From NCBI GenBank assembly GCA_964019415.1, contig OZ025868.1, positions 2,851,961 through 2,915,960 of the forward strand: DNA of 64,000 nt, read 5' to 3'. This stretch comes from Ianthella basta (Eukaryota > Porifera > Demospongiae > Verongiida > Ianthellidae). Of the stretch, positions 2,805 through 63,559 are shown piece after piece (within the stretch, counting starts at the first letter, position 1; each line of letters begins with the position of its first letter). The translations under genes were made by a program, and so were the position numbers. The notes beneath the pieces were generated by a model. The model was given only the letters and a program-made list of their open reading frames with translations, was not told the origin of the DNA and ran no database searches.

Positions 2805-2877
2805 ATGGCTCTTGCTATTGGAATTCTCAAAGCTGTTGTTTTGGCTGTTCTGTGTCTACTTCCAAGCTCCTGCCAAG
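2805..2877 (+). CDS. Receptor 1 exon: signal peptide
   Basis: The ATG at 2805 opens 24 codons ending in phase 1 at a GTAACA donor. The peptide is a classic secretory signal: MALAIGILKAVVLAV followed by a Leu-rich core and SSCQ, so cleavage is expected near its end. An acceptor-like CAG sits 6 bases before the ATG (2796-2798), implying an upstream 5'UTR intron; receptor 2 has the same arrangement. The next exon in matching phase is the Ig-like exon at 22116, so the intron is about 19.2 kb. The link is inferred from phase, strand and the parallel with receptor 2. Confidence 0.6.
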
Positions 2878-4415
2878 GTAACATAAATTATACTATGTAG
2901 GGAGTTTAGCTGAAAAGTACTTTGTTTTATATACTGACTAGCAATTAAATTCAAATTTTGCCAGTTCTGTATACCCTAATAACATAATTGCTTGCCCATA
3001 TCAATCAGTTCACCAACATACACTGGTCAACACAGGCCCGGAGGAATTAAGCACTTTAAAGGTGCATGGTCAGGCCAAGTCAAAACAGTATTATCCACAT
3101 ACATACACATACCAAGAAGTCCCTTAATTCAAGTTTGCTATAGAAAGACATAGACATACCTGAAAAACCTGGTCAGGTCATGGCCTACAGCTGGGCAGCC
3201 TGGATAGCTCTGCCGAGCATGCAACATGCACATATATACAAGATATGTATACATAATTACAACTACTGTAACACGTATCTTAGACCAAAATGTCTTGTTG
3301 CAATGGAAACGTGATTGTTTACTGTATAATAATTAGCTACAGCTTCTCATCCTGCCCTGTTCAGTGCATGCATGTGCTAGCTGTACTGATAACCATAAAT
3401 CATTCACCTTATATGCAAATTATATACACAAATAATTGTTATATCATTGCTGATCGATTGATTACAGACCAATAGTTTTGTGTATACAATTTGCAAGTAT
3501 GAGGTGTATATGACTAGCGTGGCGGATGACCAAGCAATCCATGTACACAGCAAACAATCGTGGGTGCTGGACATATTATCTTGACAAGAAGACCTTCATT
3601 TGTGAACTATACATATATTAAAGATGCTTATACACAGTCGCAATTGAAAACTCAACCTGAGTCTTACAGAATTGTATGAGATGTATCGTCTATACAGCTG
3701 CAAGCAGACTTGCCAGTGCATGTGCATATGCATATGACTGTATCAATCTTGTTAATACTTGCACATTATACAGTATGAATATGCTTACTGTTCCGATATT
3801 AATTAATGTTACCTATTCAACATGCAGTATCAATAGCATAGAGACACATTGCTACGGAATGTAATGTGCCTAGTAGGTAGTTACTTGAGCACTTGCGTAG
3901 CAGGAGCTGTAATTCAGGACCATTTTGTCACCTCTAACTCTTTCAAGCCACTGATCACACCTCTATACAAACACAGCACCTCCTCTGTATCTTCAGTTTA
4001 TCAGCTGATGAAAGCCTACGTGGCCGAAACATCCTGAAGTACAGTTCCTGCTACGCAAATGCTCGAGTAACTACCTACTAGCCACATGCAGTATTGAGCT
4101 CTTTCATGATCATTGTAGTGATGCTCTTTCAGTTACAAAAATGAAACATTGATATTCTGTAGCTTACAATTGATGTGCATTTATATATATTATGCATTTA
4201 TCAATGATGCTATATACTATACATATGGCAACATGATGTATGTATGCACATATGGCAACATGATGTATGTATGCACATATGGCAACATGATGTATGTATG
4301 CATGCCCAAATTGCATTGACTCCTTGTACTTCTCGTGATCATGCACACTTGTACACATGCACAATTACATTGTTTGCATGCATTTACATGCAGGTGAGTC
4401 AATCATGCTGCACAC

Positions 4416-4458
<43 letters not shown>

Positions 4459-7400: not shown

Positions 7401-10400
7401 AGAAGAGCGCGTATTTCATTGGTCCGAATGACTAGCACGTGAAATGCCTAATCCGTAGGCGTTTCCAAGCAACCGTAAATAGACAGTACTAAACCTGGGT
7501 ATACATCGAAGAGAGATGGCTTCATCTTGGAGGTGCACGTTGTCTGGGTTGGCTTTGACCATTATCGGACTTGTACATATCAAAGGTAAGTCAAAGACAG
7601 ATTGATGGTGGCGACGTCTTTCCTTACAATGTCAATCCACCGTAAAAGTGGGCGTCCTCTGGGTCTCTTCACGTCTGATACATTGAGGGCTAGCGTCAGG
7701 GCTTGTGCTGCTGGCGAATTTGGGGTAGCTCTTTTGCAGTGGCCAAACTACTTCAATCTTCTTCTATGCACCGTTCTACTGATTGGCTCCTGTCCCGTTC
7801 TAGCGTACAAGCATAGACCCTAGCACAAATAAACTGGAACTAGGGGGCGTTAAGTTGTTGAACCGCGTTACTTGCTTCCGGAACTATAAATATATTCATT
7901 ATCTGTATAACTATATTCATTGGCATTGCATACTAAACCCTTCATCGAGCCTCCATTTTTTCTTCAACCGTATGCAAAATTGCAGCTCAACCCATAGGTA
8001 GAGTCCAAAATAGGAGCTCCAGTTTTATAGGACATATCCTCAGCATACGATTGATACAAAATTTAGGGGTGTCGCCTGTATGAAACGCTAGAAACTTTGT
8101 AAAATGCTGACGCCGTTTCGGTGTTCACCAAAATACAATTTTTTGTAATATCTACTTTACCTCGAGTGTAGGGCAGAAATGAATGGCACAGTATTACAGA
8201 ACAAGTTGTGCTCTATCCGTGCGTAGTAAGAATGCATCACAGCATCTTCGGATAACTTCAAAAATCTGCATACAAAATTGGTATTCTTGGCAAGCATTGA
8301 CTGCCCAAGCATGCCTTATCCAGAGGCAAATGAGCTATTTTTCATGCCTACCACAGATCGATGCCATGCCGAAGAAGCCGCTAAATACCTTCAAAGGGGC
8401 AAGTCGTGCCGATGAAGCGGCTGAGACGGATTTTTCTTTGACATCCCCGAAGTTCCAAAGTACCATGGCGAGGAAGACATCCGGTGTTGCGGTTCATAAT
8501 TTATACAGTACATTACGCTATACTATGTACATTGATTATATGCAATACTTGGTGTTTCCAGTCCATTTGTTGTAGGGTCTATGGTACAAGTCTTCATTGG
8601 AATGATTTTGGGATAGTAGATGGCAAGTAGCTGTCTGTGTCGCTTCCTGTGCCACCTGTCCAGTTTGTTTAAATGGGTCTGCTTGGTTGCCCACAGCTCA
8701 CTGTTGTACAGCAGGACACTGATGACAAGAGTCTTGAAGAGCTTAAGCTTCAGACCCGTTGGCACTAGACTGTGTCTGAAGACTACTGTACGAATGGTGT
8801 GGAGTGCAGTGTATACCTGACAGCATCTGCGTTTGATGTCCATTTCTGTGTCAAGGCAGGACCCCAGGTAGACACAGTCTTTCCACTCACATGGCCCTCC
8901 CCTTTTGACCTTCAACCACAAGTCTTGGTGTCATTCACTCTTACAGCGTGTTTACACTGGCATCCGGTTCCGGGCCAGCACGGTTCGGCACGGAACGGCA
9001 CAATAAAAAAGTGTAGTGTAAACAGAACCGAGCCGTGCCGAACCGTGCTGGCGCGGCTCGGTTAACTCACCCGTGCTGGCTCGCTTCGGCCCGGGCTGTC
9101 CTGCCAGTGTAAACGAAACCGCGCTGGAACCGTGCACTCGAGAAGAGTGCGCATGCGTACGAACGAGCGCCGTCTTCGCGTGAATTCAAAGCTACATGGC
9201 TACGTGGACAGACGACGAGACGACAAAACTGCTCGAGGTATGGGGAGACGACGATATACAGAGACAGTTGCAGAGTTGTAAGCGCAATCATGGTATATAT
9301 GAGAAGCTTTCCCGCGAAATGGCAGCAGCAGGGTACAAGAGAGAGGCAGTACCGTGCAGGGAGAAGATAAAGAAATTGAAAGCTGAGTACAAAAAAGTTA
9401 AGGACAACAACAGCAAAACCGGTAGTGCCAGGAAGACATCCAAATTTTTTGAAAAAGTGGACGAGATTTTAGGTCACAGGCCTGCTACAAGACCAGCTGT
9501 TGTCATTGACACGTCCTCCACGACTACATCTGAGGATAGCTCTGTTACAGAATGCTCAATGGTCATCTCTGATGAAGAAGAGGGAGCCTCTTCAACACAC
9601 ATTGATGTCAACGTCAGTGATGATGAACAGGATGTGAACCAAGATGCTAAGGATGTGAAGCCAAAGATAATGAAGAAAAAGCGCAAACGACCCGCAAGAG
9701 AAGAGATGATGGAAAAAGCAATGGACACAGTGATGAAGAAAATATCAGACATGCAGAAGGAGAGTGACGCCTGCTTTATTGCCCTAGAAGAGAAAAGGAT
9801 GCAGCTAGATGAGAAGATGTTAGAGATGGAAGAGAGAGAAAGGAAGGAAGCTAGAGACAGAGAGGAACGTCTACGTAGGGAAGAGCGTGAGTTTCAGATG
9901 AAAATACTACAGTTGCTGTCTCAACAGTCAGTTTTCCGTACCCCACCACCTGCCAACTACTACACTGGGGCATCTGTAACTAGTAGACCCGGAAGTGGAA
10001 GCATGTATGAGTGGCCCACTGATGAAACTCAGTGAACTCAATTGAAGTAGACTGTATGCATTTATGTAGTTACTTGCACTCAAAATACATTATGTACATG
10101 TATATACTCTTTATTGTACTGAGGTTACTACACGATTACACAGACCAATACATACAAGCGATGTCATGAAATAACAATAATAATGACAGTTATACCAGAG
10201 TAACATAACAGAGTGTATGATATTGTTATACCAGAGTAACATAATGGAGTGTATGAAATTGTTATACCAGAGTAACATAATGGAGTGTAACTATATATAT
10301 AACATTCTAGATAACTACATGAAGTATTGCACCAGGGTGTCTCTAATATCTTTAGAGTGCGCAGATGTAATAACTGGTGTAGCTGCACAGCCTGGTTGTT

Positions 10401-13400
10401 CCAACCTGGCACCCTCTAGCCAGGAGTCGACAAAGGCATCACCGTGGACTTCACACATATTGTGTAGAATACAACATGCAGTTACAACCCGAGGAACATG
10501 TGCAATATCCATGTCGTTCTGTCTGAGTAGCCTCCTCCATCTAGCTTTCAATCGACCGAAAGCGTTCTCTACTACAATACGTGCTCTTGAAAGGTGATAG
10601 TTGAAGGTCTTTTGGTTGTTAGTCATTGCTGAATTGTGTGGAAAGGGCTTCATTAGCCATGTACTCAGTGGATACGCAGAGTCACCAACCAGAAATGGTA
10701 GAATATCCTTTCCTAAGACATTCTGGCTAAAGTCATTCAGTATTTCTTTATTCGTGGCCTTGTGGTACAGCTGAGAGTTCGCTAGTACTCGTGCATCATG
10801 CACGCTTCCAGGCCAACCAACCATAATGTCCGTAAATAGATAGCCATGGTCCACTACAGCTTGCAGGACAATAGAATACCAACCTTTACGATTGTAATAG
10901 TCCGTGTGGTTTAGGGCTGGAGGTTTAACAGGGATGTGACATCCATCAATAGCACCTGCACATTGAATCATCTGCCATTTCAACTTAAATCCGTCGACTA
11001 CGTTTCGCAAACTTTCACCAGTTGGAAATTTAATGTATCGTGACTGCAGAACCTGGACAATTGCTGCACATGTATCATGCACAATGACACACACTGTGCA
11101 CCTTGCCACACCAAACAAGTGCCCAATGGTACGATATTCCCCGCATGTTGCTAGACACCGTAAAGTTATTGCTATCCGATGTTGAACACAAATAGCCCTG
11201 CGTAGATTAGTGTCTTTGCGGCAAATAACAGGTTTTAGCTGATCACACAAATAAAGAAACGTTTCTCGGCTAACTCTAAAATTTTCAATCCAATCTTCTT
11301 GTGTGAATGTGCGTAAAACGACATACTCCCACCAGTGAGCCGACCTGTAGCAATGAGAGCTAGCTATTACTTGTTTTTCAGTGCACCATACTTCAGGTTG
11401 CCTAAATAGTACTTGCTACCATGCAGATGCGCACTGCATACAATTTCCCACGAGCTCACCTCTGCAATGTCCACACCGTTCTTGGTCTGGGTACGAAGCC
11501 CACGGCAATGGCGGTGGTAAGCGCTATTAGCAGAACAGCCTTCTCTCGCAGTTGTAGTTGCCTTTGAAACGCGAGTCTCCTTCGTGCCCGGCGGCCTCTC
11601 CTCCTCAACGAGCTCTGTGACGAATTAGAGGAAGACGGGGTGCCTCTGGACGATAGCAGGAGCTGACAAAGGGTTACAACGCAGTTCGACGCCATCTTTA
11701 TCGAACAGAAACAAAACGCCGCGATACACATAGTAACTCGTATCGTATCAGCAGTGTAAACGCGGGCCAGCACCGCTTCCTGGCACGGTTCCGGAATCCG
11801 TGCCGTGCTGGCCCGGAACCGGATGCCAGTGTAAACACGCTGTTAGTCCCCACTCTTTAAGGTGTTCCTTTGCTTGTTGAAGAGCCTTTGGTGATCTATG
11901 TATGAAGTTGACATCATCAGCATACTCCAGGTCATCAAAGGGTACACCAGATTCTGAGACTTGCAGTATGTGACGTAGGGCTGCTTCCAAATAGGCTGTG
12001 AAAGGTGTAGGACTGAGACCATCTCCTTGAAAAACAGCAGTGTCAACATTGAATGTGTTACTGAGAGTTCGATTGATCTTCACTTTGGCTTGTGTGTTTC
12101 CAAAGAGTAGCATGATTTCTTTGGTCTTCTCGCTACCCAGTGCTTCTTAGAGCACATCCACAAGCTTGTCCTTGTAAACAGTGTCAAAAGCTTGGCTCAT
12201 GTCCAACAAAGCCATGCAACAGTCCCAGTTTCCTATCAAGGCTTTCTCAGTGATGGTTTTCAGGGCAGACACAATCTGTGGTGGAGTGTCCTTTCTTGAA
12301 TGCCACTTGTCGTGGCCCAATGAAGGTGTCAAACTCAGGCCTGCATGCACTCAATATAGATGATGTCATTATCTTCCTTTCCGTACACAGGAGACTGACT
12401 GGTCGGAAGGATGAGCACATACCTTGTGGTTTCCCTGTTTTGAAGAGTGGGACTATGATGGAAGTTGTGAAATCTTCTGGAGTTATCATTGTGCTCAGTA
12501 TCAGGTTGAATAGCATAAGCAGGCATCTGTGTAGATTCTCACTCCCAAACTTGTACAGTTCGTTAGGTATGCCACAAATGCCAACTGCTCTACCGTTGTA
12601 CTGTGACTTCACGGCTTTCTGGACTTGGTCTATGTCCAGTCTTAAGCTGCAATTCTCTTGTAGTTGGGACATGGCATTGGGTCTGGCAGTGGGTGGTGTA
12701 TATGCCTCTGCAAAGTGTCTGCGAAACGCAGCTGCCTTGGTTGTCTCATCTGCTATTAATACCCCATCTGCAGAGAGGTCATCTTTCTTCTGTGCTCCTT
12801 TACGCATATGTGCCAAACACTTCAATGCAGGGTAAAAAGTAAGCCTTCTTGAGTCATCTTTCACTTGCACCACTGCTTTAACCCTGTCATTCCAGTATGT
12901 TACTGCATCTTCTTTCAGCTGTCTGTGTAACTTCTTTAGCACATCCTTGCGTCGTCTTCTCAGCATCGTGGCTGTGTCTGGATCATGTGCGCTTGAATGT
13001 CTGTCCTAAGTTGGCATTGAAGCTCTGATAGTAGTTTGGCTTGCTCACTCGCATACGTATGACCACGTGGGGTTTCAGGTCTTTCACCAATGGTCTCCAA
13101 AGCCACTTCATGAATGATGTTCTTTATAGTGGTCCACAACTCTTTAGTACTCTCCCCACCCCTCTCTAGGCGATCCATGATGGGAGAGAGTTTTTCTGCT
13201 AACCTGAGCTTGTACACCACTTGAAGTTCCTTCTTGGACACTAGCACCCTTTTCACACGGACCGCTTAACCCGGGTTAGCGTGTTCACATTTGGGGTCAA
13301 ATCCAGGTCGAATCCGGGTCAAACCCGAATAAATCCGGGTTGTCATCCGGGTTCTAACCCTGCTTGCGAGGTGGGTTCGACCCACATTTATCCGGGTTAA

Positions 13401-19400: not shown

Positions 19401-22400
19401 ACACTGTCAGGGCAGCTACTGTCCAGCCAGGTCTCACTCAAGGAGAGGAACAGGCTGCCATCTCCAATAGGGGCAATAAGGTCATGGATCTCGTCAACAC
19501 ATCAAGACAAACTCCGCACATTCAGGTGACCAAAAACGTTCCCCTTCTTGTACCTCTTCACTACATCTGCTAGTGAGACAGGGTCTAGGTCCACATCCAC
19601 ACTCGACTCCAGCATGGAGTGGGAGGCATGGTCAAAGGTAACTGGAGGATCAAAAAAGCTATCTGAGAGGGAGGGTAAGGAACACAATGAGCAGAACCAA
19701 TCATCATCCCCACCTGCTAGGGTAGAATACACTGCTGGAGGAACCTGTTCACACACACTGTGGAACCATTTATTGCACTCATCACACTGCAAGCCTTTTT
19801 GGTTGGCTCGCACAGGTTTTTCACACCTGCCACATGGGAACTTGTATCTCGGTCCCGGCAGCAGAAGGCAAATGGTAGCAAGATATAGCACTGATTTCTG
19901 GCTCCCTTTGAGCTTGTTCGCCACCAAGGTAGAGCGAGTTCTACACCGACTCTGGCGTCTACTGATGTCGGGGAGGCGAGGACTTCTGCCGTTGAAAGCC
20001 GCGAAGGGTTCCAAAGCAAATTGGCAGCACGTTGGAGGAGAGGAGGTAGGGAAAGGTTGCTCACTGGATGCTACTGGATGTGAGTTGGCGTTGGCATACA
20101 GGACTCGCAAGAGGATTGCGAGCAAAATCAACTCAAATTTCAGGACTTTCGCCATTATTTCAGGGCCTATCAGAGCTTTATCATTCTTCCCTTCCTATTG
20201 CAGACACATGATCAATTAGTCTCGTGAGCCGTGCATGCAGACTGTTGTGCAATACCCTACAAAACAGTCTGGTCACATTAGCCAGCTTTCTGTGGCACCA
20301 AATAGTGTAGCATTGCACAATATGTGTAAGTAATAACACTTATCTATTGCGATCATGGCTTCTGTTGTGTACTGTAATCTTATTGTTGGATAGAAAATTA
20401 CATAGAGGAGGATTGACAGCCCATCTGCTGTGCCCATCGAGTTGATTTTGTTGTAAGTAGCGATTGGGCTTCCAAACGTACCAAATGTTTCGGCAGCTAA
20501 CTTCAGTATAGCACAAATGCTTTCGCTTGGTCAAGAAACTAGTTTAGCTGAAAAGGCGATTGCTGATAGGGAAGCCGAGCTGAAAGATGCCAAGGTTTCA
20601 GTTCTGCTAGCACATGAAACCACCTCTACCCGACAAAAAACTTTGATAGCTACTTTCTGTCTGCGTTGAAGCAGCAAGGCATACCCCAACAATTCCACCA
20701 CAGGTAGTACGTTCTCTTGGAAGTCACTAGCCAAAGATTTGATTTCTTTACCAAACATTTCGGCAGCTAACTGCTGCCTTCTTCCAACTTGGAGTACAAT
20801 ACTTGTGCTATAATGCGTAACACTGAACTTCATGAAGAGATGGTGGGCAATGGCAGATCACAGTAGCCAGACTCTGCCCTGGATCCCCCTAACAACCCTT
20901 TCACACAGACCGCTTAATCCGGAATCGTGATCCGGATTGAATCCGGGTTCGACACGGATTAGCATTCACACGGCGAGCTCACGATTGGGTACCAAAAACC
21001 CGAGTTTAAAAAAAATGGCGGACAATCACCACGTTTTTGATAGCATTTTTCTCGCTGCGCTGGAGGGCCTATGCCCGACCAAGCTAGAAGACGACTGACG
21101 GCAGTAGCGCAATGCGTACGAAGCACAATCCGCTGGTTCTAAGTGGGCATCCAACCCATGCGTGAGTCGCCCGGCTCATCCTCGATCTTACCGAAAAGGA
21201 TATCATTTCCATACAATCCCAGTAGCTCTGCGTGGATGGTTGCATCCGACTATCCACCCAAAAGAGCCTTGACCATTCGTCTGCCACGTCTACTTGCACG
21301 CCGCCATTTTTAACCCGGATAAATGTGCGTCGAACCCGCCTCGCAAGCAGGGTTGGAACCCGGATGACAACCCGGATTTGACCCAGATTTGACCCCAAAT
21401 GTGAACGCGCTAACCCGGGTTAAGCAGTCCATGTGAAAAGGGTGTAAGGTACATGCAGCCCTTACCATGTGGTTGGCCATAATGCTCCAAGTCACTATCC
21501 AAAGATTTGATTTCTTTACCAAACGTTTCGGCAGCTAACTTCTTCTAAACTGCAGAATAGCCAATTACAGTATATTCTTCATCTTCACTGGTGACACTGT
21601 CTCCTTCTCTTGCATCTTACCATTCTCTGCTGGAGGAGAGGACAGTAACAGCACAGTGGTTGATGCACAAGGTAGTGAATACTCCATGTTAGGTTCCGAA
21701 ATGTTTGGTAAAGAAATCAAATCTTTGGCTAGTGACTTCCAAGAGAACTACCAGTGATGCAACCTAGCCGGTCAAGCTTCTTCAATCAATTCTACCATAG
21801 TTGCGATAGCTCAATCTACTCCAAATCTTCATTTGGCTTCGGCAGGTATAGCACACTCAATTATGCAGGATTGGTGCTAAGTGTGAAGTAGAATACCCAA
21901 TCAGATTGCAGAATAGCCAATTACAGTATTAGCTTTCTGCAATCTGATTGGATGGCCAAAATCCTGGCCACCTCATGCCATGGAAAGCTGACTCATGTGA
22001 CCAGACTCTTTTGCAGGGTCTTATGCAACAGTCTGGCTCATGAGACTAATGATTGATGTGAATCAGCTATGCTAAAGTCTAATCAGACTGTTATACTCTA
22101 TACTAATTTGTACAGGTGCTGCCCAGCGAGTGTTCCTCTACTCCACCAACTCCACCCCTTGTTTTGGTGACACTGTTGACCTCATCTGCTACTACCCTGA
22201 TGTGATGGAGAGGGTGAATGAACAACCTAGGTACACTAATAGTGTACCCACCTTGAGAATGAATGGAACACATATTTCCTCTAATGATGTATTTAACCTG
22301 AGCTTTAGAAACCAGACAACCTCAAGATTCAGAGTGAGGATTGACCCAGTCATCTTCACTGGTGACACTGTCTCCTTCTCTTGCACCTTACCATTGACTG

Positions 22401-25400
22401 CTGGAGGAGAGGACAGTAACAGCACAGTGGTTGATGCACAAGGTAGTGAATACTCCATGTTCAGTATACTACAGTGACAATTACAGGTGTAGTGTATTGG
22501 CTGTAATCTGTTGTATAGCAATGAGAGTTATGTCCGTAGTATCTGCAGCTGTTGCAATTCTAAGCTGTTTTATCTGGTATCATTTCTGCTACAGACACTG
22601 CTGCACCACCCATTCCTAATAATGTCACAGTAAATGGTACCACTGTCACGCTGAAGTGGAAGCACACTGACAAAGGACCCTGCTTTACCAACTTCACCTT
22701 CTACTACAACATCACCTGGTACCCTGTGCTGGGTGGGGTCACCCAGAGGAGAGTAGGGCAGAGTGGTGTGACTGGACCAGGTGCAACAGAGTACATCATC
22801 ACCAACCTGATGAATTTCACTGACTACCCAGTAGAGTTGTTTGCGTTCACTTCAAGTGACCCAGTTGTGTACAGTGAGGTGGCTACAGTGAACTTTACAA
22901 CTGAAGGTGCGATATGTATGCGCAGGTGTGTGCAGTAGTTATTCCACACTCCATTGTAAGTGTGATGCATATACTTAAGTGATATCAACCCAAGCTGAGA
23001 ACAGTTTTCACTTAGCATTTCATTACTTCAAGTTCAAGTGTGAGAAAAACATTTATCGTGTACTTGGAATTGTTTGTGAGAAAGAATTTTTGACTAGTCA
23101 AAGGTTAAATTAAATCACTGGAATTTTACGCCAACCAGCCTTCTACACCAATGGCGTCTCAGGAGGCTGGGGGCACCAAGCCCTATTAGTGGCAACCAGT
23201 GATTGCCTTCCCTGCTAGTCATCCTACAAAGATGGTAGAGCCACAGACAGCTGTTTCGCCCTAGTTGGGGCTCATCAGTGTGGCGTACTGATGGATGGTA
23301 AGATGACTAGCTACTCTTGTGTCCACCACTAGTGAAACACTTGTGGTTTCGACAAGAGCGAATACTAATTGGGGGAAGGCTGCAAGTCATTTACAAAAGC
23401 GTGACTTGGCGCAAGGTTGTTCAAAGGACAGTTTGTAGCAGTTGGTCCACTGCTGAGGTTTGGTTGACAGATTAATCACTGGGAATATTACACCAACCAG
23501 CCTCCTACACCAATGGTGTCTCAGGAGGCTGGGGGGCATCACGCCCTATTAATGGCAACCAAACTGTCCTTTCAATTTCTGACTAAACTGAATTTTCATG
23601 CGGCCTGACCTGTGCAAAGGAGCATGGGGGTGTCTGTTTGCATAAACCAGCCTCCTGGTATATTTCAGAAAGAAGGTGGCTTGGTACGTATGTATGCTAG
23701 TTGTATCACCACAGACTAGTAAAGGCATGCATCCTGTTTAAATTGCAATAATCACTCTTTACCTATCCCATGCACAATACTTGTGCTATAATGCGTAACA
23801 CTGAACTTCATGGAGAGATGGTGGGCAATGGCAGATCACAGTAGCCAGACTCTACCCTGGATCCCCCTAAGGTACATGCAGCCCTTACCATGTGGTTGGC
23901 CATAATGCTCCAAGTTTGCTGTAGCTTGAGTATGTAGGTCAACAGACACACAAATTCACAGACTCTTATTGTAGTACAACTTCAGCATCTGTGAGGGCAT
24001 TGTGGTAGTGCGTCTTACGGAGAATACTGGAGATCTAGAATTAGTTTCCTGAAGCAACTGTAGTCAGATGAAAGCACCCATCCAGTTGTTAGTCTTCATT
24101 CTAGCGGGCTGGTTTAGCCTGTGTTAAGAAGATGAAGGCGATCAAGGTTGGTGACAATACACAGTCCATTCTCAGTTACACCGTAGCTTTGTCCTTCAGG
24201 CAATTAGAATAGATTATGTTCTTGACTTGACATAGTTTCTCTCTTTGTAGGGGCTATTTTCTTGTCTGCCTGCAACGGCCGAGCAGAACCAATGTGCTGT
24301 TCTGTGTCTGGTTGTAAGGAACTGGTGTGCCTAAGCTTGACTAACCCGGTCCATGGCTTTAGGGAGCACCCACAGTTTCGGGGTAGTGGCACTGACACGA
24401 GTGTCTTCACAACACTTCAGTTTGTAACTGGTGATGTAAACGCCACAATAGAAGTTGCAGCTGAAGGATTTCGGCTCTGGTTTAGACTGAATATGTTCAG
24501 CAGCAGGTCTTTCTTCATACAAGCACGTGTATGGCCAGTCACTGAAGAACCTTTGTTCAGTAACAATTATACCATCTACCAACGTTCAAGTGAGTGAATG
24601 CATAGTAGTGTAATACGTAGCTGTGTTAAGTTGACTTTGAAGGATTAACATTGAATAGCATGCACTGTGTATATGTGTTTAGCGCTTTGTTTCTACAACG
24701 ACTGCACATCTCTGTTTTTGATTGTAGGCCCCCCTCGGCCCACTGTGAAATCAGCAGCCTTATCAGGAAATGCAAACTCCCTAAAGCTAAATGTTAAGAT
24801 CCAGGTATGCTGATTGAGTTTACTTCTCATGATGTTTCCCTCTGTGTAGTCTTCAGTTGAATGCTGCAGCTTTACCTTTACTAGCTATAGCAAGCCCCAC
24901 AAGCGCTAAAGGCCCTTGTGGAAACCTGTATTAGGAAGGTCTATCAGTCACTGACAGTATCACTGTCATCAAATCTTGTCAGTTGACCAACATTGCCATT
25001 GACTGTCCATTGGAATCCGTATGTCCATATAATATATTCAAGCTTTTCCAATCTGGGCATACTCTTGTGCGGGGCCATTAAAAGCGGGGATCTGATTGGA
25101 GGGCGCAATCATGTGACTGCAACATAGCTGCTCTAGCCGTGAGCATATGCCTCGCGAGCAGTCTCTGAGACACTTTGCGTTCCTCAGGTTGGGTCTCCCT
25201 AGCATCATGCACTTGCGCAGAGGATTGCTATTAAACCCCTTTCACATGGACCGGTTAATCCGCATTAAAACCCAGATAAATGTGGGTTTCCGCATTCACA
25301 CTGCGATCAAATACCGGATCCGATCCGGGTTAAAAACCTGCTGACAAGGTGGTTTTAAATCTGCATTATACGGTGAATCCGGGAGTTGATTGCGTTAACA

Positions 25401-28077: not shown

Positions 28078-28160
<83 letters not shown>

Positions 28161-28170
28161 ACACACACGG

Positions 28171-28241
<71 letters not shown>

Positions 28242-37200: not shown

Positions 37201-40200
37201 GAGCCTGGCTCTCAATGTGAGCCAGGTCTGAACAGATCTCATCTAGCGTGCCACCCAGGGTCCCGTCATCCAGATAGAAAACTCTAAATTGGGACCGGAG
37301 GGAAAGGATAAGGTCGTGGATGCCCAGGCAGAAAAGGAGTGGTCCAAGAGGGTCTCCCTGCTGGACACCCTCAGCAGACATGATGGTGCTGCTTCTGTAA
37401 AACAGAAAGGATGGGAATCTGTACGCAGAGAAGGCGAGGGGGTACACATTGGGAGCCTTGGCCTGGACCTCCCTGAGGATGACGTCCCTCCTGATGGAGT
37501 TAAACGCGTTTTGGAAATCCAATTTTAACATCAGGTTTCCAGGCTGTAGTTGGGTGAGGTAGGCTCTGGCTGTGTGGACTGCACCCTCCGCGCCCTTCCT
37601 TGTGCCAAAGCCCAACTGTAGGGGAAAGAGCAAAGAGCCCATATCCTCAGAAACGGAGTTCCCCAGGCACTTGGCCGCCAGTCGGCGGAGAGTACAGCCC
37701 ACTGCGATAGGCCTAACTCCACCATCTGGTTTGTTGAAGCCGAGAAGTCTGGCCCCAAAGAAGAATGGTATGACAGGGTGAGGAACTTTGCCTGAAATTA
37801 CCAAAGTGACAAAAGAGGCCAAGGCCTGTACAAAGGAGGCACCCACCTCTCCTAAAGAGGGGGAGACAAGGTCCTTAAGGTGTTGGGGGAGCAGCCCATT
37901 GGGTCCCCCAGCAGAACCAACAGGGAATGACATGACTGCCTTTTTTACTTCAAGGGGGCTAACCTCTAAAGTGTCTTGGAGCAATGGAGCAGGCGGGAAT
38001 GTACTGTCGGGATGTGCTGGAGGGTGCTTCCTGCTTAGCTGGTTTAGTGATCTTTCATCTGGGATACACAGGGACTCTGCAGAACTCGCTAAGCGAACAG
38101 CTCCCTTAAAGTCTCCCTCTTCTAGTTTGGCAGAGACTCTGGTGGCTAAGTTGTTAGGTGCTGTAGGCCTTGGCTTCTGCTTCTCTGGCAAAGCATGGGG
38201 TGGGTTAACCTCATCCTGAATGGCCTGGTTAACTATTGAGGCAAGGTTTCGTCTGTGGCCACCCCTCTTGGGAGCCACAAGACATCTCCTTGGGAAGAGG
38301 ATTAGGCGCTCCCAGGATTCAACGTTATTCTGGGTGTTGATGGAGTACAGGATGGATGTCAGCCTCTGGGCTAATTGAGGTCTGGAGCCTCTAGGAATTC
38401 GTTTGAGAATCCTACCGCTGAAACAGCCAGGGTTGAGTGAGGATGGAGATGAGGCGACAACCTGTTGAGTAGAATCCTGCTGGAAAGGTGCATTCGGCAC
38501 GGTTTGGGGCCGAGAGACCGGGGCCGTGGGGGTTCCCGGTAGCGATGTTGAGAGGGAGTCGGCTGGCGGCTCCCCGGACCCTGGGCAGCGGTTAGCCTGG
38601 GGGCCGTGAGTTTTCATCTTTCCATCGAGCCGGACTTGGATGGTCCGTCCACAAGTCACGCAGGGAGCTGACGTGATCCTACCCGGCATGGCGCTGATTG
38701 GAGGGTAAACGTTCAACAAGAGGGATATTGACCAGGCGATCAAAAGTAGCCGAAAAATTAAGCGCGCTAATGATAGCTGTGCTGAATACTGGGATAGAAG
38801 GCTAGTGCCCTTGTGGCTAACGGTGGGGGTAGTGAGGGGCGCAATGGAGGGGATAGCATTTGAATCTCTACAGTTCATCCTCACCGCCCGTCCGCCATCT
38901 TGTTAATCTCTGATTATATATATATATATATATTGCATTGCATGGGTCTCTCCGTGTGCTCAGCATATGCCAGCTGGTCGGACACAGGCTGGTAGTGCCA
39001 TTGCTACTCAGGCCCCAGCTAGTAATGCACTGGCTGGTCATGCATGCTCTGGCAAAGGATAGTCCAGGCTGGCCTGGTGATGTCAGTGTGACTGACCTAC
39101 CATGTGTGCATGCAATTTACATGGAAGATCACCGTAGACAAACAACGGATAGTTGTAAGAAGCTGATGGTTTCTGTGTGAGACAACCCCCCTTTCCTTTT
39201 TCTCAGCTTCGGCATCGCGCTAGCTTGGGTGTATCCTCGAACCTGCGCGAACGCCTAGGATACGGCATACTTTCTTCCAAGATCCAAGATGGCTGACGGT
39301 CGGTTCATCCTGGGTTATCGCCGCGTGCTCCTTGGTAGCAGCTTATTTTAGCACGTCTACCACCTTATATTGATGTGAGGTACAGCGTGCCACGGCTGGG
39401 AACGTTTGGTCATGATTGGTCGATGCTCGCGGGAGGAGTTCGCGAACAACGGTTGGGGTTCTTCTTTTGTATTGGCAGCATAGGAGCGTGCGCGGAAAAC
39501 CGTATATTTTCTCCATAAATCCAAGATGGCGGACGGTCGTTTGGAGGTTTTTCGCCGCACACTCCTCGGCAGGGGCTTCTTCGCGCATGTCGCCCCCCTT
39601 AGATCGAGACCGGGTGTGGCGTCCGTAATCTGGGAAAGTTTGGTGTCCATGCGCCGTTGCTCCCGGGAGCAGTTCGCAAACAACCGTTCTGCTCACTCCT
39701 TCTTTATATATATAGATATGTGACCGGAAATCGTGGCTGTTTCATGTCTTGCGGCTAGAAAAGCGCCGAGACACTTCAATTTCTGATCTCTCTTTGTATC
39801 TATATGTTGAAAAACTAGCACTCTCAGTGAGTAGTAGATGGAAAGCTATTCCTTAGTCTTCAATTGACGCGCACCAGTGTAAAATCACCATTTTCATAAT
39901 GATGTCATCGAAAAAGTGCGCCCAGACCGTGCGCAGGTTCATTAACCTTGCAACCCACTTCCAACAGCCATTTTAATGGTCTGGTCCTACTTTTTACGGA
40001 CCGTGCGCGGGACTTCCGGTGGCCGTTTTAATAGTCTGGTCCTACGTTTCTACAGCGCACAGGGTATGTGTTCTATGAACTCTAGTTACACTCAGTGCTC
40101 ATGCACTAATCAGTGTGGTTGGTAGATTTGACTTGGAATTGTTTTCAGCTGCAGCATACATACTCCGAGATGAATGACACAATTGAACGAATAGGCACAC

Positions 40201-43200
40201 ATGCGCACTGCCTTACACAGCAAGGTAGTTAGTAATAATACTTATACATCGATAGTGAAAAAAACATATGGTAAAATGAAACTTGGAATTGTTGCCCACT
40301 TTAGAAACCAAGACCAGTGCCAGGTGATGCATGTCTGAACTGGACATACCATGCATACTTGAATGGATCTATGCTGAAGTTTCTTGAACAAAGAGTAGAA
40401 GATGCGAGTTTGGTACTTGTGTTTGAAGTTGAAGACAGAGATCTAATATCACAGCTGTGTGTAGAAATCTTGGCTGTGGGGGACACTGGTCTTCAAAGCA
40501 ATTCAACTTGTGGTGAGTGCATGGACTTTGCCACTGCACTTAAATTTTGACATTAAGTGGTTACTTAAGTAAATGATGTATTTCTCTAGTTACAGTACAA
40601 GTGGAATCTGGTGACACTGGGTCATATGGTGAGTTTGAATGAAACTATGCTTGTCTGTGATGTGCATATTTGGTTGTTATATGTACTGGAATGATGAGTT
40701 TACTCCAATCACGCTCTGTTTCTGCAGATTGGATAGCAGGCGTAGTACTTGTACCAGTGGGCTGTGTGATTGCACTTGTGGTGGTGGTAGTGGTAGTAAT
40801 TGTCTGCTACTGGTACTGCCATAACACCCATAAGAAGACCACCGAGGTATGTATGTACTTTATATTCCAGCAATGTGCATTAATATTGTGTCGCACTGTA
40901 AACGGTTGTACACGTGCCTTATGCTTATATGTGGCATTGCATAGCACTATTTTAGCCTCATTGTGTAATGTTAACTCTGTATAATGGTGTGCATAGTTGT
41001 GTCCTCACGCACGTCAAACGAACAACGACAAGCAACATGTGCAACACAGGGAATGAGACTCTCGGCAAATCAATGATTACTGACGCAACAACAGGGTCAC
41101 TACAAAACTGAGCATGCGTAACTACATTCATGCATTTACTAAAGGAATTCTGAACATTACAAGCATGCAATATTCACAAACATACACCATGCACACTGCA
41201 CTTCCCCTCCCTCCCTTAAGAAAATGGCTACAAGCAAGCACAATGAGTGATGATCATGAGCAGATAAACATGGATACAGCAACTACTAAAATGAGGGGTG
41301 AAACCTGTCAGGTTCGTTATGCACTCGTTGCGTGTAACGAGGCGTCACTGGCATAAGTGAAGTAGGAGTGGAAGTGGCATCATCGGTTGATGAATTCTCA
41401 ACATGCCAACTGTTAGAGGATATTCCCTCTGTGTCAGCTATCTCTGATGAGGTCTCTGCTGATGTCTCAGCTGATGGCAATTCTATGAGCATGTCACTCA
41501 TCATTCACCGCCACTGTCTCTAGATCACTCCTTGCTTGCTGTCTCTCTGTGCGCTGTTGCAAGTGATCTTGATGCCTGCGTACAATCTTCCCATTTTGCA
41601 ATCAAATGCTGAAAGATACTGGGCCATTTGACTATGATTTCACCTGGGATCTACTTCTCCCCCGCTCTGAAATTCAGGACGTACACCAGATCACCAACTT
41701 CAAACTTGAGTTGATGAGCAGAAACATGCGTTGCTTTCTGTTGCAACTGCTTGTTCTCAACATGCTTTGCTGTGTTGGGTTTCAAAAGGTCCAGTCTTGA
41801 TCGAGGTTTCCGACCCAAAAGAAGCTCTGATGGAGAGACTCCTGTAGTGCTATGTGGAGCAAGTTGGTAAGCAAACAAGACTCGGGCAATTTGGGTATCG
41901 AGGTCACCTTCTTTAGCCCACTTTTGAGAATCTGAACTGCTCGCTCTGCCATTCAAAGATGGATGATAGGGTGCGGAAGTGATGTGCTTGATGCCATTGT
42001 CCTTGAGAAATGCTTCAAATTCTTTACTAACAAAGCAAGATCCATTATCAGTGACAATGGTTTCTGGCAAGCCAAGCTGAGCAAATAACATTCTCAACTT
42101 GTCAATCGTGACCTTGGATGTTGATGAAGATACTCTGAATGCTTCAATTCATTTAGAATGGGCATCGATCACGACTAAAATCATGTGACCATGCAATGGA
42201 CCTGCGTAGTCCATGTGCAGTCTGGTCCATGGGCACATAGGCCAGCCCCAAGGATGTAAAGGAGCAACTGGGGGTAATGACTGATTGGCTTGACATTGGG
42301 AGCAGGTGCGCACTGAATCTTCAATATCTCTATCAATTCCAGGCCACCATACATACATTCTAGCCAAAGCCTTCATCTTTGTCATCCCCAAGTGACCTTC
42401 ATGAAGTTCCTGCAACACTGCCTGCTGACCTTGTGGTGAAACAACCACTCGAGCACCCCACACAATGCAATCATTGTGCATCGAAAGCTCTGATTTGCGC
42501 AATGCAAATGGTGCTAGTTCCTGGTCACATTGGCTTGGCCATCCTTGCATGACAAACTGGAGAACTGATGCAAGAGAAAGATCTCTTTTCGTCCAATCAT
42601 AGATCTGATCTGCCATGAAAGGTGAGTCCGCCAAGCACTCTGTTAGAAGCACCAATTCTTATGGTGTAGGCACCTATTCTGGAACAATGGGTAGCAGAAG
42701 CCTACTCAAACACATCTGCGTTAGCATGAGCACGTGTATTCCGAAACCTCAATGTGTACTCGTAAGTGGAGAGGAGTAAAGCCCAACGGCGAACACGAGC
42801 TGATGCCTGTGGCAATGTTGGTCGATGCTAATTCAGGAGGGCAAGAAGTCGCTGGTGGTCTGTACACAGTTCAAAATGATGTCCAAACAAATGCGAGTGG
42901 AATCATCGGACACCGAACACACAAGCCAGTGCCTCCTTTTCAAGTTGGGAGTAGTTCTTCTCACTCCCAAACAACATACGTGATGCATACCTGATTGGCT
43001 GTTCGGATCATCAGGCATTTGGTGTGCAAGCACAGCTCCGACACCGTAAGAAGAGGCATCACAGGCAAGAATCAACTTCAACTGCGGGTCAAAGTGGACG
43101 CGGAGACGGGAGGATGTCAGCAAATCCTTTGATGCTTGAAATGCCTGCTTTTCTTTTGCCCATCACCAGCGTGTATCTTTCCTCAGTAATTTGTACAGAG

Positions 43201-46200
43201 GAGCAAGGACAGTCGATAAGTCTGGGAGGAACTTGTCATAATATGTGAGTAAGCCCAGGTGAGCCTTCAACTCATAAACATTCCGTGGACTGGGAGAATC
43301 TTTCACAGCTTGGACTTTGTCTGAAAGCGGATGCAGACCTTTAGGATCAATCTGATGTCCCAAATACGTGACAGAGTCAACCATGAATTTGCACTTGTCT
43401 CTGCGGACACGTAGTCCTGCTTTCTCTAGACGATCAAACACTTGGTCCAGGGTTTCAAATGTCCCTCATCAATCGCTCCTGACACCAAGATGTTGTCTAG
43501 ATATGCAATGACTCATGGAATTCCCTGCAGAACACTTTCTATCACCCGTTGAAATATCCAGGGGCTGATGAGATACCAAATGGTAGGCAAGTATGGCGAA
43601 ATAACCCTTTGTGGGTATTGATCACCACATACTGCTTGGACTCATTGTCAAGAGGGAGTTGCTGATAGGCTTGGGTGAGGTCAATCTTTGAGAACAACAT
43701 CCCACCTCCGAGTGCCGCAAAAAGATCCTCAACCTTGGGAATTGGGTATCTGTCTAGCTTGGACACTGGATTCACTGTCAGATGGAAGTCCCCACAGATT
43801 CGAATACTGGACTTGTCACTCTTCAGAACCAGAACAATTGGGGCCACCCACTCTGAGAATTGCACAGGCTCTAGGGTACCTTCCTTAACGAGGCGTTCCA
43901 ACTCGTCTTCCACCTTGGCTTTGAATACATACAGAATGGTATGAGCTTTGCAGAAGCGTAGCATTGGGCCCACCAGGATCCTCACCTTGTGCCCACGGAG
44001 TTTACCTAAGCCACCTTGAAACAATTCTTCATGTTTGGCGACAACTGACATCAACTTGTCCTGAAGGTAATGGATTTCTCTCCAGTCCAGTCGTATTTGC
44101 TCAAGCCAGTTTCTCCCAAGGAGGTTCGGGCCTTCCCCCTTCACTACCACAAGTGGTAGCTGAGCTACTTGACTTTGTAATTGATGTTGACATCCATGCT
44201 CCCAACAACGGGGATTGCCTCTCCCGAGTAAGAGCACAATCTGATGTTTGAACTCAATGGGCTCTTGTCCAGCCACAACTCTTTGAATGTTGCTTCAGAT
44301 ACAATGGACAGGACTTTCATCACCATCACTACCGGGCAATCTTCAATTGCTATTGTCACTGTCAAGGGCTTTGAACTGCCTGCTGATCCGATGTGAAACA
44401 GAGGGTATCCGTTTACCTCATCTTTTCGCTGAACCACACGCACGGACTGTGGTTTCTTCCCAGCTGCTGTCTTCTGTTTCATGCGGCATACGGCTTTGAT
44501 GTGTCCTGTTTTGCCGCAGTAGTGACACTTCACATCCTTGAACCTGCACTTGGCAGCACTGTGTCCTGACTTGCCACAGCGATTACGATTAGCACCACTG
44601 TCTGACTTCCTTTGATCTGGATGTGACACCTTGTGGACTCCTAGCATGTGAGTGGTACCTGTTGCTCCTGGCACCTCTTGTCTGAAGCCTGTACTTTGTA
44701 ACTGCTTGACATTTTATTCAGCTGACTCCAAATCCTGTGCCAGTTCAAAGGCCTTCTTGAAGGACAGTGTGGATTTAGCCAGCAGCCATCGCTGAATGCC
44801 TGCATCATTGATACCACAGACAAGGCAATCCCGGGCATGTCTTCTAGTGCTGCTCCGAAGTTGCAGACTCTGTCAGACACCAAACCTCTAAAACAAATGT
44901 TGCAACTGACTCACCAGATTTGCAGACCCAACTATGGAACTTGAATCGCTGCACACTCTCAGTTGGAGCAGGGCTGAAGTGATTAGCTAGTGCCTTGACA
45001 AGTTCTGCGTATGTCTTTGTATCAGGCTTTGCCGGTACGGTCAAATTTTGTAGCCATTTGTAAGTGTTAGCTCCAATAAGCGAAAGGAAAACTGCATGTT
45101 TCTTGTCTGCATTCTTGATCCCGTTCGCCTGGAAGAAGTACTCCAGCCACTCCTGGTACTGGGACCATTCTTCTTTGTCCCCATCAAACTCCTCGATTCT
45201 CCCGAGGGTCACTGCCATCTCTGCCCTGAGTTCTCGGCCCATTTCATCCGCCGCTACACAATCTGTCTCGGCAGTTCTCTGCTGCTCTACAATCAGTCGC
45301 TGTCTCTCGCTAATCTGTTAAGTGACGCTGAAGCTCTCTGAAGCTGTGCAATCTGCGAGCAAAGTCTCCGCTGCTCCAGGGGCTAGCTGAAGCACGACAA
45401 ACAGAAACAACAATAACGCACACGGCATGGATCCAACCTTGGGTCGCCAATGACATGGTGCTTCCCACAACCACCGTCAAACGAACAACGACAAGCAACC
45501 TGTGCGACACAGGGAACGAGACTCTCGGCAAATTAATGATTACTGACGCAACAACAGGGTCACTACAAAACTGAGCATGCGTAACTACATTCATGCATTT
45601 ACTAAAGGAATTCTGAACATTACAAGCATGCAATAATCACAAACATACACCATGCACACTACCATAGTGTATATTGCCTGTTATGTAATACTTTGATAAT
45701 GTATTGTGCATCCCAGATCCACAAATTGAATGAAGTATGGAAATCTGCGGCTACATCATTGGATAATTCAGTTGTGTCAACGGTAGGTACAAAGGTATTT
45801 TACAAATAATATTGTTTCTTTTGGAATTGTACAAATTGTGTAATTACTCACATAGATGTTTCTTTTGCAAATTATAGCATAAATAGTGCACATGGTCAGT
45901 CTAAGTTGCGGCATTGCATAAAATGAATTACTTGGTGCTAATTTTGATCTCAGTCCCTGGCCATGACTTACTACTGTCTAGGGAAGTGAAGTCATAGGCA
46001 ATTTAACCCATTAGCGCTGAAGATTAAAATTTGCGCCGTGCATCCGGTGCCGAAATTAAAATGGCAACACACATGAGCGATTCGGCGTGCCACGATATTT
46101 TAACTTTATTCGCGCCCGAGACGGTAGGAAGAAGAGCGCCGTGTTGCCAATGTCAGGCAGAAACATGGAAGGGTCGTCTCATACGACTTCAAGACTCCTG

Positions 46201-49200
46201 CTCGCCCTGGTTTAGTCGCTGCGTCGTGTAATAAACTCACCTTCACCCGTTGCGTACTGGGTGCAAACTTTGGCACTCCAGTGCAGGCTTTGGACGCAAG
46301 TAGGGACGGCACAACGCAGCTGTTCAAAGCTCCGTGACTGCTATCTATCCTTCAAAAGTGGTGTGTCCTTACAAGGCTCGTAGCAAGAAATATACAAAGC
46401 TTAATGCGCACTTTCGGTTATGACGCCTACAGGCGTCATCCGGACTTATGCGCAAACTAATAAATGACGCCTACAGGCGTCATTCGGCGCTAATGGGTTA
46501 ATGTGGGGAATAAGACCACATTCATTGCTCCCAGTCATAATAACAGTTCCTGGCAACCTTTGTGTGGTTTACACACGGAGTTCATCACTGAGCAGTAGGT
46601 ACAGGGTGATTGTATGTGCTAGCATGAGGAAGAAGCTAGCACCTGTGAAGTGCTCAAAGCTTTTATACAGTATGTGACAATATAATGTTAACATTCTGTT
46701 TGTATAGAACAAAAGGAACATCTGTTTTTATAGAACGGCGGAAAAACGGCCAGAAAAACGCAATGTACCATTGGTCAAATCAAACGAAAGATTTACGCAA
46801 CGGTTCCAGACGGTTCGGCGGGCAAATGCAACAATATCAGCGCGCATTGGGGACACCAGCCAGAGAATACGACGTCTGCGAGTCACTTATCCCTCGTTCT
46901 GGAGCTACACACCACCCTCATTCCTATTCCTGAACGAACCGTTTTGTTCCCCCACCATTTCGGCGCACTAAACCGTTCTTTTCTTACCATCTTGTTAGAC
47001 CACACAATGCACTGTAGAACGGTCAATTCATTTATTTTTAACGCAACGAAGCGGAAACTAAACGTTAACGTTACAATGTCACTTACTGTATTTCTATCAT
47101 TTTGCACCAACTTGGCAGACATCTACACAACAATCCAAGGAGTAATCTAAAGTGGTTGACGTCATCGCTGCTGGCTGCTTTAGGTGGTGACATAAGAAAT
47201 TCTATGCCCACAGAGTTTGCTGAGACAGTCTATAGAAAGGTCCCTATGAAAAGTGACATTTGGATTGGATTTTCAGTAGCTTTTCTATAAGAATGGATAT
47301 CATTGTTTTGGGAAAAGATCTTGTTCTGTGAAATTTCTCCTGCATTAGAGAGGCTTAGCACAACGTAACACGTAACATAGTAAGCTTATTACGAGCACAA
47401 GAAGTAATGTTTTTGATGTAACAAGGCTGCTTATTGCGTTTATTTTATACGTACATTGTTTGGCTACAGAAAACTCGTCTTAGATCATTCGCGCTGCTGT
47501 CATCCCTCAGCTGCTTTCACTTCTTCTCGGTCTCCGAACTCGGCTAGTTTGAGTCCATCCCCCGTGTTGCATTCAGAAAACCAGCTGAAGCCGTCATGCG
47601 TTCACTTTCAGGCAGCAAACGCTGTAATACTGTTGTGCAAAGTTGTGGCAGTCAAGCACCCCTTTTGCATGAGGGTCAGCCTGTTGGGAGGACATAGCTG
47701 GGACACTGCAGAAAGAATTTCTTGCAAAATTCAAAATCCAAGCGTTTCCCATGTCTCCTGTGTCTTTTTGCTAGCGCAGCAAGTTCCATCTGCGAAATTC
47801 GTATCATCTGAATTGAGCACAGCCATCCACAAACCAACCTCTGTGCTGTTACTCGCCATTTTCACCCACTCTAAGGCAGTGCTTACGATTAGGTCAGTGC
47901 CACATTATGCTATGTTCGAACGTTGTTGCGTTAAATCGAAGAACGTATGAATTTGCTCTGTGCCACGTGCCCTTATTACACTATGTTTGAACATTGTGCT
48001 AAACCTCTCTATTGTGGTGTAGTATGAATGGTTACATGCTTGTGTGTGTAATTTCTTTCATGAGATAGGGTGCCCTAAATTCAGTCAGGGGCGGATCTGG
48101 GGGGGGGGGGGGTGGCTTTGGGGCTTGAGCCCCCCTCCTTGGCCCAGATCGGAAATATGTTTCTTAGCAAATTGCACTGACGTGTACATCCAACAGAACA
48201 GGTCTTTCATTCACTTTTGAGATGTGTAGAGTACAGGTACTAATAGCATATAGATCTCATTACCATGGTAACAGGCAATTTAACTGATGTTTCTGAAACT
48301 CGTAGACTTTCACTTGCATTTCACGCGGGGTCTAAATCCTTTAGATACTGGTGTCTAAATCCCATAGAACCCTCTATAGTAGAGAAACTGCAGCTGATAA
48401 CAATAGTAGCGCCATAACATACGATAGAATGCACAGGTCGCCCGGCTTATTTGTTTCATTGATAAGCAGGGTACAGAAACAACCCGGCTATGAACCAGAG
48501 CTAAGAAATTGGAACTGCAGCTGGATACGAGCTACGTGGACAACAGGCTTTGGTAGCTAGCTAAGTACACAGCTCTGGGAAACACTGTGGCTGACGTGGC
48601 TGACAGTAAGCTTACGCATAACTGATGCGCCGCATCCACTGCCGACCTGTAGGAAACGTCTGCTGCAAGATGAGCAACCCAACTTGAGACCCGAATCACA
48701 CGACATTTTCTCCGCCAGTGTCAGGAGTAGCTAACTACTTCCGGAAGATGCGTGATGACGCAGGGACGAGTAGGTAAACTGATTCGCTGCCGGCTCCTTA
48801 CCCAATCATTTGGGATCTATAACACTTAAATGCTGACCAATCAGTGTCACTGAAGATATAGACCACTCAGCACTCGGACGCTTTGCGCCCTCATGCCTCA
48901 TGCTCTAAATCTCAGAGACACCTCTTGGTCAGCATTTAACTATTACAGAGACTCATTGCATGAAATTGCAATGAATGTAGTTATAGCTTCAAAATGGCTG
49001 GATGAAATAACCGGTCATTCAGCTGAATTTCACCGCAAGAATCAAGCTTCTTTGACCTTCGGCACCCAAGTTACGCTCCAAGGTATGAAAAGTAGTCGAT
49101 AGCTTACACTACAACTGAGCAAACTGTGGATTGTTAGTTAGTGTATATAAAATGGTTAGCATGAATGGTACCCTGGGGGGGGGAGGGGGGTGGAGGGGGA

Positions 49201-63412: not shown

Positions 63413-63559
63413 GTAAGACAACACACCTCCATATCTTCGGAACCCACTTCTGTCTTAAACAGCACTAGTGCTTCTTCGCTCTTAGTCTGTGCATCTACCC
63501 CCGGTGGTGGTGTTCGCCCCTCCTGGACAAAATGTTGCAACAAGACAGAAGCACTGTGA

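Follow-up and report, generated by a model that had tools for sequence, protein, structure and literature searches.

A predicted chimeric gene of the sponge Ianthella basta joins an Ig-FN3 cluster receptor to a ZU5-Death module

Here, we describe a predicted gene of the sponge Ianthella basta that is probably chimeric, i.e., a receptor from a local Ig-FN3 cluster seems to have been joined to a ZU5-Death module of the type found on contig C5. We hold this reading, which builds on sequence comparison, with modest confidence. The stretch of DNA analysed (64,000 nt; the window in the following) corresponds to C1:2,851,961-2,915,960 of a genome of 209 Mb in 96 contigs. It holds 16 predicted exons on the + strand (2805-52067), which yield an uninterrupted reading frame of 1,001 aa when spliced. 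Their order is signal peptide, Ig-like domain, FN3 domain, an unnamed module, a split FN3-like domain, a short stalk, a transmembrane (TM) helix and a juxtamembrane exon; then come a linking exon, the ZU5 exon, a pair of UPA-like exons and two linkers, and finally a death-like exon that contains the stop. The respective features are (window coordinates, strand, description):

2805..2877, +, exon 1, signal peptide MALAIGILKAVVLAVLCLLPSSCQ; phase-1 donor; top score among 4 candidates listed for 1-22116; place in gene uncertain
22116..22442, +, exon 2, Ig-like by eye, canonical Trp missing; phases 1/1; no Pfam match
22595..22906, +, exon 3, FN3 domain 1; phases 1/1; Pfam fn3
24251..24589, +, exon 4, unnamed module with several Cys; phases 1/1; no Pfam match; found in sister gene
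24728..24804, +, exon 5, second FN3-like domain (by eye), first part; phases 1/0
40305..40512, +, exon 6, second FN3-like domain (by eye), second part; phases 0/1
40590..40628, +, exon 7, short stalk; phases 1/1
40728..40846, +, exon 8, TM helix by hydropathy; phases 1/0; also in sister gene
41012..45660, -, LTR retroelement inside the intron between exons 8 and 9; its two LTRs (41012-41197, 45475-45660) are 97.3% alike over 186 bases
45717..45782, +, exon 9, juxtamembrane; phases 0/0; both splice sites in sister gene
48062..49164, no strand, fusion zone; receptor homology stops, mostly repeats, homology to a C5 ZU5 gene starts
49258..49309, +, exon 10, linking exon DTEVIPLPLATDVTKLT; phases 0/1; 94% nucleotide identity to the L069 exon; borders conserved
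49410..49981, +, exon 11, ZU5 domain; phases 1/0; Pfam ZU5 20.6 bits (cut-off 21)
50057..50212, +, exon 12, UPA-like part 1; phases 0/0; kept in paralogs; weak donor, its position common with L012
50301..50511, +, exon 13, UPA-like part 2; phases 0/1; kept in paralogs
50793..50882, +, exon 14, linker with GC donor; phases 1/1
51323..51418, +, exon 15, linker; phases 1/1
51799..52067, +, exon 16, death-like domain and stop; Pfam Death 13.2 bits, below cut-off; hhalign 91%

All exons named by an earlier sequence-only reading of this DNA are present on the + strand with AG acceptors and GT donors (a single GC donor in exon 14), while the UPA, Ig and second FN3 assignments within that set lack profile support. 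The same reading had phases agreeing at all but two junctions and allowed for an extra exon before ZU5. Such an exon was found at 49258-49309 and repairs the phase break; once it is included, phases agree at 15/15 junctions, which replaces the former count. Since exons were selected by splice signals and open frames, this agreement arises partly by construction, and at the key joining junction a phase match is expected by chance in 1 of 3 cases. Because of this biased exon choice and the chance level at the key junction, we compared the chain with its relatives.

The introns of 19, 15.5, 4.9 and 3.5 kb within the predicted gene carry mobile elements, which speaks against a single gene. Apart from the LTR retroelement listed above, which contains integrase and reverse-transcriptase fragments, we observed a DDE_Tnp_4 transposase (- strand) adjoining a Myb/SANT-like protein (+ strand) at 9184-11415, by our own reading a Harbinger-type element. 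At 17019-20194 and 36641-38902 (- strand) there are frames for reverse transcriptase, among them one of 753 aa, and one frame with a PHD finger.

The Pfam check proposed by the sequence-only reading bears out one domain: the first FN3 exon scores 26.8 bits alone (cut-off 25) and 23.1 bits within the whole ectodomain. ZU5 and Death stay below their cut-offs (ZU5: 18.1-20.6 bits on the window vs. 21; Death: 13.2 bits on exon 16 vs. 22.6), while the Ig exon, the unnamed module and the second FN3 are without match in the Pfam scan. The Ig-like exon shows paired Cys by eye. For UPA, neither the window tail nor any of the 8 scanned family members (0/8 at E <= 1) gave a match. The second FN3-like and the UPA-like segments are thus candidate FN3 and UPA domains, recognized by eye and position only. 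Exon 8 is the top hydropathy window of the chain (3.43); its single TM helix sits between ectodomain and ZU5 in the predicted, phase-consistent chain, and 16/18 N-glycosylation sequons fall within the ectodomain.

At a relaxed threshold (E <= 0.1), Pfam ZU5 detects 16/20 ZU5 exons of the local family, window included (best 3.1e-6). A genome-wide Pfam ZU5 search at E 1e-9 returned nothing (51 candidates), the family matches being weaker than that threshold. A Pfam scan covering two of the three + frames of 40001-52600, with stops replaced, yielded ZU5 (E 0.042) and one unrelated weak match. The Death assignment of exon 16 is a putative one supported only profile-to-profile, i.e., by hhalign against Death domains of the same genome (91% probability, E 9.7e-7). 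A single-sequence structure model of this exon (pLDDT 65) shows six helices and has no Foldseek match below E 0.001; the respective ZU5 model is uninformative (pLDDT 35). Searching PDB by sequence and by profile brought up neither UNC5 nor a death domain. The tail region compared with 5.8 billion proteins gave no match at E 0.001 among 7,991 candidates scored, which says nothing on novelty because the database may hold few animal proteins.

By sequence comparison, the Ig and FN3 exons of the window are of the type of a local Ig-FN3 receptor cluster. The Ig exon has 32 genomic matches (the window's own counted), and the Ig and FN3 exon family lies mostly in C1:1.96-2.91 Mb, with more copies on C9, C3 and C5. 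In C1:1.96-2.91 Mb and C9:2.63-2.66 Mb, Ig-FN3 exons are followed by several different TM-like stretches, an arrangement resembling an immune or allorecognition complex. A second receptor gene of the cluster is located within the window itself (60047-63559, + strand), with Ig from ~61206, FN3 from ~62376, a short exon and then a hydrophobic stretch. Furthermore, a broken extra copy of the Ig-exon end, with an in-frame stop by eye, is present at 21580-21846 (+ strand).

More informative for exon borders is a sister gene at C1:2.793-2.801 Mb (- strand), the one place elsewhere where exons 4 (module), 6 (second FN3, part 2) and 8 (TM) find significant matches. Across the six exons 4-9 (module to juxtamembrane), 12/12 borders recur in the sister, a result independent of our exon choice, and there are three length differences, each a multiple of three. 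It is colinear with the window up to 48062, TM and juxtamembrane exons included, with matching pieces 76-86% alike; the LTR retroelement at 41012-45660 is absent from it. After 48062 the two diverge: the sister shows an exon-like stretch ~70 bases on and then other open stretches, which we take for its own putative tail. In a genome search, these tail-like stretches match the sister only (6 matches from 8 candidates), and tblastn finds no credible match to them in the window.

The 5' joins differ in certainty from the rest. The signal exon has 12 other genomic matches, all at C1:2.947-3.115 Mb, where Ig matches are weak, and the second receptor gene has its own signal candidate (60047-60140) ~1 kb 5' of its Ig exon. 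In the sister, no Ig or first FN3 was found within ~2.8 kb 5' of the module exon. Because of the signal-exon copies elsewhere and the missing Ig/FN3 upstream of the sister's module, we place less confidence in how exon 1, exons 2-3 and exon 4 are joined than in the joins among exons 4-16. Whether the signal-peptide exon belongs to the predicted gene is uncertain.

For the tail, we find relatives in the same genome. With the ZU5 exon and the next exon as query, at least 153 matches were obtained (150 candidates scored), down to ~31% identity and some on small contigs that repeat C5; among the matches listed, ZU5 or death exons within the receptor cluster occur in the window only. The window shares the linking exon, ZU5 and two UPA-like exons, together with their borders, and also the death exon with this local ZU5-Death family, and the nearest relatives of the tail parts are on C5. 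The C5 gene L070 matches best downstream of and including the ZU5 exon (82-84% across ZU5, the exon after it and the two intervening introns), L069 for the linking exon, and C5:4,597,881 is closest to the death exon among the matches listed (75%). Since L069, L070 and C5:4,597,881 are each best for different parts, the donor is a mosaic or absent from the assembly. No death exon was found near L069 among the matches listed, and L070 is masked further on. In several family loci (e.g., L033, L037, L016, L029) a Death exon lies few kb 3' of ZU5.

Upstream of ZU5, the family members vary. The upstream exons of L069 and L070 read as coiled coil by eye, not as a receptor, and in L032 (C3:12,641,113-12,644,688) a protein kinase (Pfam E 5.6e-40) precedes linking exon, ZU5 and UPA-like exons. 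Upstream exons of L020, L036 and L018 are death-fold-like by eye; L020, the only one scanned, has no Pfam match. A TM-like stretch within 1.5 kb upstream was seen by eye in 1/19 correctly oriented ZU5 paralogs. This locus (L019; C16:5,968,103-5,971,672), with the stretch <=1.5 kb upstream of its ZU5 exon, is possibly a second membrane-bound member.

Both homologies end in the fusion zone, leaving ~1.1 kb between them. Most of 48062-49164 recurs elsewhere as repeats, and 48203-48254 also matches L069. The match to L069 from 49164 on has 88% identity over the 94 bases preceding the linking exon and 94% in the latter. None of three L069 coiled-coil peptides could be credibly matched to the window. 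Given the start of the match at 49164, the repeats 5' of it and the unmatched L069 peptides, the ZU5 copy looks cut in the intron before the linking exon. That is, two truncated genes abut in matching orientation and phase and therefore resemble a chimeric gene. The single receptor-ZU5-death gene proposed by the sequence-only reading is thus favoured by the extra exon, the phases and the joined truncated copies of equal orientation, with the single mRNA a prediction.

We propose the following course. A receptor of the Ig-FN3 cluster would have been broken near 48062, in repeat-rich DNA, losing the rest of its own cytoplasmic exons, and would have gained the 3' half of a C5-type ZU5 gene, beginning at the phase-0 linking exon (49258). 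If transcribed as one mRNA, the spliced product would be a type I membrane protein whose fast-evolving, glycosylated ectodomain may bind a ligand. Clustering or release of the receptor could expose the death domain, by analogy with UNC5B, such that the ZU5-(UPA-like)-Death tail would relay the signal to Death-domain adaptors with cell death or inflammation as possible output.

Alternatively, the window might hold two neighbours, i.e., a short-tailed receptor that ends soon after the juxtamembrane exon and a cytosolic ZU5-Death gene with its ATG in the ZU5 exon and its promoter in the repeats of 48062-49164. Such a pair would be in line with the 18/19 ZU5 paralogs without TM-like stretch in the 1.5 kb upstream (by eye) and with an in-frame ATG 5' of the ZU5 core. 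The unspliced juxtamembrane frame stops at 45809 and polyA-like hexamers follow at 46023-46459, 5' of the ZU5 part, as a separate receptor would call for; no such hexamers occur after the predicted stop in 52068-53000. However, the linking exon still has its two splice sites and is 94% identical to that of L069, although a gene starting inside the ZU5 exon has no need of it, and the ZU5 part is a 5'-truncated copy for which no upstream coding exon was found. We consider two separate genes unlikely, while giving this reading serious weight. By comparison, we deem it very improbable that the gene is a true UNC5 orthologue with FN3 in place of thrombospondin repeats. Its order of TM, ZU5 and death domain is identical to such a receptor, but the closest kin of its tail are genes of this genome that adjoin coiled-coil-like or kinase exons, the kin of its ectodomain are local receptors, and Pfam finds no thrombospondin type 1 repeat in the ectodomain at E <= 5.

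Substitution patterns bear on another reading, namely a dead or dying fusion in which truncated pieces of two genes lie side by side without function. The ZU5 exon speaks against it, where 17 synonymous and 18 nonsynonymous changes on the window branch (2 codons unresolved) give an omega of ~0.30 (C5 relative: 0.34); 18/35 nonsynonymous changes vs. 78% expected argue against neutrality (p 0.0005). That is, the ZU5 exon is constrained on the window branch, and part of this constraint may be older than the fusion. A rougher tally of the window's private changes, made at consensus codons, points in the other direction (1 synonymous, 5 nonsynonymous). The two introns are as similar to L070 (84.0% and 82.4%) as the exons (84.4% for ZU5 and 83.3%), a comparison that does not show constraint. 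A dead fusion would also be in accordance with the lost canonical Ig Trp, the broken Ig fragment at 21580-21846 and the receptor-exon omega near 1 (0.98 overall vs. the sister; 0.84 for module exon 4; 1 synonymous and 12 nonsynonymous changes in the juxtamembrane exon). Against it, the same receptor exons show no stop in ~154 changes (P 0.0025, simple model) and have 12/12 splice borders in common with the sister. Compared with the second receptor gene of the window, Ig and FN3 show omegas of 1.35 and 0.86, and pairwise values are 0.66 and 0.68 for the UPA-like exons and 0.57 for the death exon. Since UPA-like, death and receptor omegas exceed that of ZU5, there is room for relaxed constraint. 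A contrast between a freely evolving ectodomain and a constrained signalling domain would be in keeping with an immune-type receptor; relaxed constraint would raise omega too. Overall, a functionless fusion appears improbable to us.

If the preferred chimeric gene is transcribed as one unit, it would be a well-resolved case of a surface receptor that gained a death-domain tail, with relatives of both parents, the breakpoint zone and the phase-0 junction visible in one genome. In that case, evolution would also seem able to produce the receptor-ZU5-death layout of UNC5 repeatedly. The sequence-only reading had proposed an UNC5 variant with FN3 replacing thrombospondin repeats and, beyond that, a distinct receptor class. 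The first proposal gives way to an ectodomain from the local Ig-FN3 cluster and a tail from the local ZU5 family; as for the second, the likeness to UNC5 looks like a lone graft and convergence rather than an ancient class. The receptor cluster is a candidate for allorecognition; to our knowledge, allorecognition genes are little known in this animal group. In a wider and tentative reading, towards which we lean less than against it, a mobile ZU5-Death graft linked a ~1-Mb fast-evolving Ig/FN3 cluster of an early animal to cell death. The UNC5 layout would then have been re-invented independently, and self/non-self recognition would have a candidate connection to cell death. Among literature titles and abstract openings, in a coverage outside which most subscription journals lie, we found no Ig-FN3-ZU5-Death receptor, the ones of the same layout being UNC5/netrin receptors, and no named sponge Ig-FN3 receptor cluster.

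Among known systems, PIDD/FIIND proteins comprise ZU5, UPA and a death-fold domain and are autoproteolytic with an HFS cleavage motif. The window protein likewise shows ZU5, then a UPA-like region, then a putative death-fold domain, but it is a predicted membrane receptor and the HFS motif is not evident: at the likely PIDD cleavage position of the ZU5 alignment (placed by our judgement), many rows read TFS or AFS.

The Alr genes of Hydractinia encode Ig-superfamily receptors that span the membrane once and vary in their ectodomains; they are clustered, together with many probable pseudogenes (available excerpt of PMC11067881). The cluster around the window, known from one assembly, resembles them in these respects, as a group of putative single-pass receptors. 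In contrast to the window gene, no death-domain tail is mentioned for Alr in that excerpt (PMC11067881).

UNC5B carries two Ig and two thrombospondin domains, and a closed ZU5-UPA-death form is proposed to open for signalling (both from the available part of PMC8358048). Like UNC5, the window gene is predicted to encode a type I membrane receptor with an Ig-like ectodomain, ZU5 and then a putative death domain. Unlike UNC5, it has one Ig-like domain, FN3 and an unnamed module, no thrombospondin repeat was found in the ectodomain scan, and its tail is nearest to local ZU5 genes. Membership in UNC5 was rejected on the latter two grounds.

The local ZU5-Death family (L069, L070, L032, L033, L029 and others) has ZU5, two UPA-like exons and, in some members, the linking exon, yet, in the relatives read, places a coiled-coil-like region (L069, L070) or a kinase (L032) upstream where the window has a receptor. 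In the sponge Amphimedon, TRADD-N proteins are described as greatly expanded, many of their architectures being unique, and fusions of such domains to a UPA-ZU5 module are described too (available part of PMC8195603). An exchangeable ZU5-Death module, as suggested here, fits that picture as far as this excerpt presents it.
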